A stretch of 41,696 nt of DNA, taken from assembly GCA_903940125.1 (NCBI GenBank), contig CAJAJL010000059.1:122935-164630 (forward strand), given 5' to 3'. This stretch comes from an uncultured Chlorobiaceae bacterium. GTDB lineage: Bacteria > Bacteroidota > Chlorobiia > Chlorobiales > Chlorobiaceae. The translations under genes and the position numbers were made by a program. This document shows, in pieces, positions 36,605 through 39,072 of the stretch. The notes under the pieces were generated by a model, which did no database searches, was not told where the DNA came from, and worked only from the letters and a program-made list of their open reading frames with translations. Numbering within the stretch: the first letter of the stretch is position 1; the number at the start of each line of letters is the position of its first letter.

Positions 36605-38179
36605 TTATTTTGCGTAGGCTATAGAGCGTTTTTCGCGAACAATAGATACTTTGATCTGTCCGGGATATTGCGCTTCCGATTCGATTTTATGCGCAATATC
36701 ATGGGCAAGAACATCTGCCTGTGAATCGCTGACATTATCGCCTTCGACAATAACCCTTATCTCCCTGCCAGCCTGCAAAGCATAGGTTTTAAGAACACCG
36801 GGAAATCCCTTGGCAATCTCTTCGAGACTTTCAAGACGTTTCACATTGCCATCGGAAGTTACCGCACCTCGAGCACCCGGACGGGAGAGTGAAATAACAT
36901 TGGCAGCATCAATAAGCTCTGCAACTGGAGACTCTTTAACAACATCACCATGGTGAGCTGCAATAGCATTGAGCACGACATGAGATTCGTTGAATTTTTT
37001 CATAAACGTCATTCCAGTGATTGCATGAGGCTGATCACTTTCCGGCAGAACAAGTCCAATATCATGCAACAGACCGGCACGCTTTGCAAGACGGGCATCA
37101 AGTTTTAGTTCGGCAGCCATAAGACCTGAAAGCATGGCAACCTCACGACTATGCTGCAGCAGATTCTGGCCATAAACCGTGTAAAATTTCATTTTACCGA
37201 TAAGCGCGACAACCTCGGAGGGCATGTCAGGAATCTGGAGTGCAGAAAGCGATTCCTCTCCGGCGCTGATAATGACATCATCAATCTCCTTTTTGGCGTC
37301 TTCAAAGGCTTTCTCAATAGCCACAGGATGAATGATTCCGTCAACAAGAAGTTTCTGGAGGGTGAGCTTGGCAAGCTCACGACGCAGAGGATCAAAACAT
37401 GAAAGAATAACAACCTCAGGGGTATCGTCAACAATAATATCAACGCCGGTCGCATTTTCAAAAGCTTTAATATTGCGTCCCTCACGTCCGATAATACGGC
37501 CTTTGAGTTCATCGCTCTGGATATGAACCACAGAGAGTGCGTTTTCAGTAGCCTGCTCAAAAGAGATCCGCTGTATTGCAGTCAAAAGCGTTTTTTCGGC
37601 AAGACGGCTCGCCTTCTGCTCAGCTTCTTCATGAATCTGATGAATGGTTTCAGTCGCTTCTTCGCGGGCTTTGGCAACCATGTTGTTGATCAGCATTTCT
37701 CTCGCCTCTTCGGCCTGAAGATTACTGATGCTTTCGAGACGCTGATTCTGCTCTATAATAATCCGTTCAAGCTCTGCAGCACGAAGCTTGACCTGCTCAG
37801 TAGTCTGGTCGATCTCCTTACGCTGTTCCTGAAGTTTCCGTTCGACATCCCTGATATCCTGACTCTGTTTTTTCAGCTGAGCTTCCTTTTGCTGAGTCTG
37901 CTTCTGAAGTTGGTTGTACTTGTTGTTTTTTATAACGACTTCCTGATCAAACTCCCTGCGCTTCTTTTTCCACTCCTGGTTAACTTCGCTGACTTTAAGC
38001 TCCTTGTACTCGTTAGCCTCTTTTTGAGCTTCCTGCACTATCTGCACCGCCCGTTCTTCAGCTTCAAGCACTTTGGTCGTTCCGATCCGTTCAAGAAAAA
38101 AACGTCCGATAAAAAAACCCACACCAAAAAACACTATCGAAGCAAAAACAATTAAAAACAGGTTTATTACTATACCCAT
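36605..38179 (-). CDS. rny: Ribonuclease Y
   Basis: Membrane-anchored endoribonuclease that starts mRNA decay in bacteria lacking RNase E. The 524-aa protein has an N-terminal membrane helix (residues 4-26), a long coiled coil (about 35-210), a KH domain with GRIIGREGRNIKAFE and an HD domain with the metal motif LLHDIGLV and AIAAHHGD. The start is supported by GGAGGT directly upstream. It follows zapA and a candidate RNA gene. Confidence 0.97.
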   Translation of the reverse strand: MGIVINLFLIVFASIVFFGVGFFIGRFFLERIGTTKVLEAEERAVQIVQEAQKEANEYKELKVSEVNQEWKKKRREFDQEVVIKNNKYNQLQKQTQQKEAQLKKQSQDIRDVERKLQEQRKEIDQTTEQVKLRAAELERIIIEQNQRLESISNLQAEEAREMLINNMVAKAREEATETIHQIHEEAEQKASRLAEKTLLTAIQRISFEQATENALSVVHIQSDELKGRIIGREGRNIKAFENATGVDIIVDDTPEVVILSCFDPLRRELAKLTLQKLLVDGIIHPVAIEKAFEDAKKEIDDVIISAGEESLSALQIPDMPSEVVALIGKMKFYTVYGQNLLQHSREVAMLSGLMAAELKLDARLAKRAGLLHDIGLVLPESDQPHAITGMTFMKKFNESHVVLNAIAAHHGDVVKESPVAELIDAANVISLSRPGARGAVTSDGNVKRLESLEEIAKGFPGVLKTYALQAGREIRVIVEGDNVSDSQADVLAHDIAHKIESEAQYPGQIKVSIVREKRSIAYAK

Positions 38180-38233: not shown

Positions 38234-38412
38234 AAAAAAAAATCCGCACCATACGTTGATGAGTGTAAGATTCAAGAACCCGTGATACACGGTGGGTACC
38301 TCCTTCAGATATTTTGCTTCCATGGGAACACTGTTTCCAATGTTCTTGAATACTGAGCGGAAAGCGTCAGAAATTCAACAAGGCCTGCAATCAAAAAGAA
38401 GAGTTCGGCTCC
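38234..38412 (-). ncRNA. ssrS: Candidate 6S RNA between zapA and rny
   Basis: The zapA-rny gap has no protein gene but shows an RNA-like layout on the minus strand. A weak promoter (TTGTAA at 38439-38444, TAAAGA at 38417-38422) would start a transcript near 38410. A 9-bp helix TTCAAGAAC/GTTCTTGAA (38342-38350 with 38271-38279), extended by GTA/TAC across a bulge, encloses smaller hairpins such as CCGTG-TAT-CACGG. A hairpin (38247-38265) followed by nine Ts ends the unit, giving about 180 bases, the usual 6S length. E. coli ssrS lies next to zapA. No search was run and the closing stem is not clear, so identity is provisional. Confidence 0.5.
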
Positions 38413-38494
38413 CTATTCTTTAGTGTTAGTTCTTTTACTTACAAGTCACATCAATCAGCTGGTGCGGATATTTCTTCTCTCTTAATGTAAAGGT

Positions 38495-38758
38495 TTATGA
38501 CAGATTTTGCCCTAAAAAAACATTGAGTCTGGCGATGTTCTGCTTCAGTGAAGCCATTTCCTCTTCAAGTTCTATCTTTTTTTCTGCAAACGAAATTGCG
38601 GCAAGAACTGCCAGCTTCGCAGACTCAAATGTCGGAGCTTTTTCAGCAAAAAGCCGCATCACTTTATCAACATCCCGAGCTGCCTTTTCAGTCAATTCAC
38701 GCCTTTCTACCCTTAAAGGATAACTGTCGCCATAAACATTTACATCAATTTTTTCCAT
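38495..38758 (-). CDS. zapA: Cell division protein ZapA
   Basis: An 87-aa FtsZ-associated protein that promotes bundling of FtsZ filaments in the Z-ring. The N-terminal beta part (MEKIDVNVYGDSYPLRV), the RDVDKVMRLFAEK helix and the C-terminal coiled coil (EKKIELEEEMASLKQNIARL) fit the family. It is eight bases after a coiled-coil gene and upstream of the candidate 6S RNA. Confidence 0.88.
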   Translation of the reverse strand: MEKIDVNVYGDSYPLRVERRELTEKAARDVDKVMRLFAEKAPTFESAKLAVLAAISFAEKKIELEEEMASLKQNIARLNVFLGQNLS

Positions 38759-38766
38759 CTCATTAC

Positions 38767-39072
38767 TTACAATGTCTGACTGTTTCTGAGTTCCATTTCT
38801 ATTTTCTGCAAAATCATGACCAACTTATGCTTCACCTGCATTTGTTCCGCATAGGTAAACACTCCTCCGGAATTGCCATTTGCATCCATGACAGTGGAAC
38901 CGACACTTCCCGGCAGTTTACATGACCTTAAGATATTTTGAAGACTTGAAAGTTCAGATCGCAATACATCATTCTCTTTCCGGCACTCGTTCCACCGATC
39001 CATGAGAATCTCAATATTTTCCTCAAGAAGGCTGACATCAGCCTTTATGTTCTGTCCTTCAAAATCTTGCAT
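38767..39072 (-). CDS. Coiled-coil protein between pheT and zapA, function unknown
   Basis: A 101-aa soluble protein with two helical, heptad-like stretches (about residues 12-50 and 75-98) around a Gly/Asn-rich middle. I recognise no family. It starts 13 bases after pheT and ends eight bases before zapA, so all three are probably cotranscribed. Its size and coiled-coil nature next to zapA suggest a division partner comparable in shape to ZapB; that is an inference from context only. Confidence 0.75.
   Translation of the reverse strand: MQDFEGQNIKADVSLLEENIEILMDRWNECRKENDVLRSELSSLQNILRSCKLPGSVGSTVMDANGNSGGVFTYAEQMQVKHKLVMILQKIEMELRNSQTL

Follow-up and report, generated by a model that had tools for sequence, protein, structure and literature searches.

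In other bacteria, 6S RNA imitates an open promoter and sequesters RNA polymerase. In Escherichia coli, the gene ssrS, which encodes it, lies between zapA and fau in the order zapA-ssrS-fau, with the genes on one strand. Matches to the Rfam 6S family also adjoin zapA in Vibrio, Comamonas, Desulfocapsa, and one Calditrichota genome, and the loci from Desulfocapsa and Calditrichota additionally contain rny. The small hairpin in the 3' strand of the central bubble of Bacillus subtilis 6S-1 RNA is preformed in the free molecule, whereas the long 3' hairpin of the E. coli type arises only upon release (PMC8876501). Bacteroides thetaiotaomicron, from the related phylum Bacteroidota, has an experimentally supported 6S RNA with pRNAs (PMC7366714). 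A literature search returned no paper on 6S RNA in green sulfur bacteria; the surveys Wehner 2014 and Barrick 2005, which are the likeliest to list 6S RNAs of Chlorobi, were outside its scope.

The window analysed here is a 41,696-nucleotide stretch of DNA from an uncultured Chlorobiaceae bacterium. On its minus strand, zapA is followed by a gap of 315 bases and then by rny. We identify the minus-strand RNA located between the two genes as the product of the 6S RNA gene (ssrS) of this Chlorobium-group bacterium, with a probability of about 95%, on the basis of its homology in sequence and in structure, its covariation, its presence as a single copy, and its conserved place. The gap folds with a minimum free energy of −76.2 kcal/mol (z = −5.06), which none of 200 shuffled sequences equalled, and a structured unit is kept in every zapA-rny gap of Chlorobiaceae that was read. 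The folding energy and the conservation bear out the initial annotation, which had described a structured minus-strand unit in the gap. Its naming of the RNA as probably 6S is upheld by the full-length match to the Rfam model RF00013, the compensatory changes throughout the rod, and the phylum-wide placement beside zapA and rny, and the clue to ssrS that it took from zapA agrees with the gene order in E. coli. The length of about 180 bases given there has to be corrected to about 240 nt, and the interval 38234–38444 is too short, as the 5' arm of the closing stem falls outside it.

When Rfam was applied to the window at its own cut-offs, four tRNAs were the only matches. Relaxed thresholds yielded one serious match in the zapA-rny gap, to 6S RNA (RF00013), and the remaining weak matches in the gap were rejected. 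The 6S match, obtained by the RF00013 search of the gap that the initial annotation had proposed, is located at 38468–38242 on the minus strand and covers model positions 1–187 of 187, with a score of 28.8 bits and an E-value of 6.4e-4 for the 701 bases searched. This score does not reach the 46.4 bits of the gathering cut-off, which is a rule for inclusion in the database and not a biological defining feature. In a search of the whole genome, the gap gave the sole 6S match (E 6.6e-4). Among 41 genomes, namely that of the window and 40 relatives, 22 contain a match to RF00013 at E ≤ 0.001, compared to approximately 0.04 expected by chance; all 22 matches span positions 1–187 and are positioned between zapA and rny. 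The gathering score was passed in none of the 41 genomes. Because every Chlorobia genome searched falls below this score, annotation based on cut-offs probably misses the 6S RNA of Chlorobia. Three phylum-level RF00013 matches that were checked (loci L003, L127, and L129) are situated between zapA and rny, and one of them, at 47.1 bits, is above the cut-off. RF00013 matches in relatives have E-values as low as 2.9e-7. The plasmid records searched were without a match.

The covariance model R1 was built from 47 Chlorobiaceae copies. In the genome of the window, R1 matches a single locus, at 38475–38237, with 247.7 bits; a second copy was not found by this model, as the next match has an E-value of 5.4. 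Of the 98 genomes of the order, 93 contain a single R1 locus, including 73 of the 74 of high quality, and all nine genera are represented. Extensive self-complementarity of the rod explains the second listings of R1, which represent the same place on the opposite strand. A 17-base conserved word of the 3' strand served to retrieve additional Chlorobiaceae loci from named genomes, and the RNA is present in 81 extracted sequences, with some genomes counted twice, adjoining zapA and rny wherever the contig extends. Across the phylum, R1 matched 18 genomes outside the order, and the zapA-rny copy in genome G074, which scores 47.1 bits with RF00013, is also recognized by R1. The order zapA-RNA-rny on one strand was found in all 29 distant loci read, three of which came solely via the Bacteroidales-1 family. 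The RNA searches are blind to gene context, and the placement beside zapA and rny therefore provides independent support. The comparison across the phylum identifies the RNA as a single old gene with an unchanged position beside zapA. The 6S RNA of Chlorobia appears to be a global transcription regulator that cut-off-based Rfam annotation would overlook. The RNA is of an ordinary kind; its description in green sulfur bacteria is of use for annotation and provides boundaries, a structure, and a predicted pRNA template.

The 47 non-redundant Chlorobiaceae copies, which are less than 93% alike, were aligned, and their consensus structure is a rod of 56 base pairs with the layout of 6S RNA: a closing stem, a large central bubble, and an apical arm. 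Compensatory changes across Chlorobiaceae, which the initial annotation had suggested looking for, are found in this alignment, in which 19 pairs change on both sides. The consensus partners can pair in 97.1% of alignment cells, compared to 36.8–49.3% when the partner is slid by one to three columns. Two-sided cells number 177, compared to 56.2 in shuffled alignments, which ignore relatedness. Helix 2 of the lower rod, helix 5 on the apical flank of the bubble, and helices 9 and 10, which form the two hairpins at the apex, covary most strongly; in helices 9 and 10, 12 of 13 pairs have two-sided changes. The long closing stem, which could not be assigned by eye in the initial annotation, is formed by CCGCACC and GGUGCGG. 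Because they are nearly invariant, the closing stem and the helix adjacent to the bubble are consistent with the fold and contribute no covariation evidence of their own. The bubble is flanked by G-C pairs invariant in all 47 copies: C38429-G38279 on the closing side, and GGG/CCC (38413–38411 with 38296–38294) on the apical side. The Rfam alignment places the extra length of the RNA in a 53-nt insertion at the apical end relative to the 6S consensus.

Table 1. Features of the putative ssrS locus, with positions counted from the first nucleotide of the window.
Feature	Position	Strand	Characteristics
6S RNA gene (ssrS)	38234..38478	-	Predicted transcript of ~240-245 nt; Rfam RF00013 match, clade model R1 match, covariation
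zapA, upstream neighbour	38495..38758	-	Pfam ZapA 5.6e-12
rny (RNase Y), downstream neighbour	36605..38179	-	Pfam RNase_Y_N 1.9e-43, plus KH_1 and HD
TTTACATT, possible -10 region	38484..38491	-	Between the zapA stop codon and the RNA
Closing stem, CCGCACC (5' arm) and GGUGCGG (3' arm)	38461..38467 and 38244..38250	-	99.4% of cells paired, nearly invariant
Central bubble, 5' strand (UAACACUAAAGAAUA)	38414..38428	-	Unpaired in the consensus; predicted pRNA start region
Central bubble, 3' strand with preformed hairpin CCGU...ACGG	38280..38293	-	Helix 11, 100% of cells paired; forms in free folds
Apical end, two hairpin arms (UUGAA/UUCAA, GAACAUU...GUUC)	38321..38382	-	Helices 9 and 10, covarying
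U9 tract, likely 3' end	38234..38242	-	Directly follows the closing stem; from sequence

The region between pheT and zapA contains an open reading frame of 101 amino acids at 38767–39072 on the minus strand. Its product is a probable coiled coil, with TSC22 at 0.0024, below the cut-off, and otherwise without a real Pfam match. Similar-sized open reading frames are located directly upstream of zapA in the distant loci L003, L124–L127, and L129 of the phylum. The reading frame possibly encodes a ZapB-like partner of ZapA.

The ends of the RNA were positioned from conserved sequence elements. Of 65 aligned relatives, 63 retain a TACATT box just past the zapA stop codon, and the approximate 5' end was placed 7 nt past this box. 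The possible promoter of the initial annotation was not confirmed: a sigma-70 consensus pair was sought and was not found, and because of this the box is a putative promoter element. The 3' end is probably within the T run. The terminator hairpin with nine Ts reported in the initial annotation is correct with respect to the nine Ts; a local hairpin before them was not found, and they follow the long-range closing stem instead. The closing stem and U tract may act as a terminator. The closing arm and U tract were found in most of the aligned relatives across the phylum.

By analogy with characterised 6S RNAs, the central bubble would mimic an open promoter, bind RNA polymerase containing the housekeeping sigma factor, and withhold it from promoters. 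Upon a rise in NTP concentration, the 5' strand of the bubble would serve the polymerase as template for a short pRNA across the AAGAACUAACA block. This block is nearly invariant, and the same analogy makes it the likely pRNA template, with the pRNA expected to run towards the 5' end over AAGAAC. The synthesis of the pRNA would open the adjacent helix and free the enzyme. We infer that the RNA is transcribed, binds polymerase, directs pRNA synthesis, and is used in starved or light-limited cells. Folding of the 47 relatives with the pRNA template masked produced no single release structure, and a central-bubble collapse helix was rejected as a universal feature, since it was predicted in only 11 of the 47.

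The initial annotation had proposed a 9-bp helix closing 62 bases, formed by AUUCAAGAAC and GUUCUUGAAU. The complementarity of the two strands is present; as a native fold the helix was rejected, as it occurs in none of the 47 minimum-free-energy folds, and in the 47 relatives 79.1% of its cells pair and no two-sided change occurs. Both strands belong to other consensus helices, of which the apical ones covary, and the helix is lost in the Chlorobaculum-like clade. A functional role in the release state, in which the helix would form once the 3' strand has been freed by synthesis of the pRNA, would add to the 6S reading. At least nine of ten pairs are possible in 26 of the 47 relatives, several of them through G-U pairing, and the helix folds in five of 47 once the pRNA template is masked. 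This low number led us to reject it as a general pRNA-release helix. The absence of two-sided changes, the loss of the helix in a large part of the family, its failure to appear in any free fold, and the assignment of its 5' strand to helices 9 and 10 make a release function very unlikely.

A polymerase-binding RNA of 6S shape could also behave like Ms1, which is structurally related to 6S RNA (PMC9130861), and bind the core enzyme without sigma and without producing pRNA. The bound form of the enzyme cannot be told from sequence alone. However, Ms1 was described from Actinobacteria only (PMC9130861), and the 6S model itself matches the RNA studied here, which shares synteny with E. coli ssrS. 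Furthermore, related Bacteroidota have 6S RNA with pRNAs (PMC7366714), and we consider Ms1-like behaviour highly improbable. The location of the RNA, always upstream of rny and on the same strand, would suit a riboswitch, or an rny leader or attenuator acting in cis, in place of a separate RNA. A match to the SAM-I/IV riboswitch (RF01725) at 38421–38493 on the minus strand overlaps the 6S RNA in its 5' portion; however, with 22.8 bits and an E-value of 0.38 it is under the cut-off of 41.1 bits, and it is probably due to chance. The structure stops at the U tract about 55 nt ahead of rny, the 6S match spans the full length, and the gene downstream in E. coli is fau, while zapA is constant. A regulatory element of rny, or a riboswitch, is thus almost certainly the wrong reading, and the 6S RNA gene remains our assignment.

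The relationship of Chlorobia 6S RNA to those of other phyla was approached using both R1 and gene order. R1 matches the 6S copy of Calditrichota (E 3.4e-19) and an above-cut-off 6S RNA of a Bacillota genome (E 1.6e-9), and at E ≤ 10 it did not reach the copies from E. coli, Vibrio, or Bacteroidales-1. There is a hint that the zapA-6S-rny cluster predates the Chlorobia and Calditrichota phyla. In three Bacteroidota genomes, Bacteroidales-1 RNAs (RF01693) are located in the zapA-rny gap on the same strand (L124:1501-1649, L125:1501-1650, and L126:1501-1665), and the RF01693 model has no match in the genome of the window. Three distant loci were found only through Bacteroidales-1, and this family therefore occupies the same place. 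These observations suggest that Bacteroidales-1, which Rfam treats as a separate family, represents the 6S gene of Bacteroidota. They also suggest that the link between zapA and 6S RNA is old and that one zapA-linked locus joins the Chlorobia, Bacteroidales-1, and proteobacterial RNAs. More specifically, we see roughly even odds that Chlorobia 6S RNA, Bacteroidales-1, and proteobacterial ssrS are one gene kept beside zapA since before the phyla split, with the closing stem and U tract doubling as a terminator in the Bacteroidota-Chlorobiota line and the two-hairpin apical domain added in Chlorobia.

Two further observations concern individual loci outside the phylum. The Calditrichota locus (L214) has the order zapA-6S-rny as in Chlorobia, with a pheT-like end upstream that was read by eye. 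Two Nitrospira genomes (L212, L213, L216, and L217) contain two partial RF00013 matches each, limited to approximately positions 59–134, and zapA was not found alongside; these are possibly incomplete or spurious 6S hits.

In comparison with known systems, the Chlorobia RNA has the 6S-like shape of Ms1 RNA of Actinobacteria, and its polymerase binding would be a shared property; however, it belongs to another clade, and Ms1 as described binds the core polymerase (PMC9130861). With Bacteroidales-1 it shares the zapA-rny gap and the strand, whereas neither RF01693 nor R1 matches the RNA of the other family. The hairpin of the 3' bubble strand (helix 11, CCGU/ACGG) is paired in every copy, which resembles Bacillus subtilis 6S-1 and differs from the E. 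coli type; a difference from 6S-1 is that just 11 of 47 masked folds are predicted to contain the central-bubble collapse helix. The zapA neighbour is common to E. coli ssrS, whereas the downstream gene is rny here and fau there. The similarity to 6S/SsrS (RF00013) extends over the full-length model match, the closing stem, the bubble with its conserved flanking G-C pairs, and the apical arm. In contrast to the RF00013 consensus, the RNA scores below the gathering threshold, is about 50 nt longer apically, and carries two extra covarying hairpins.
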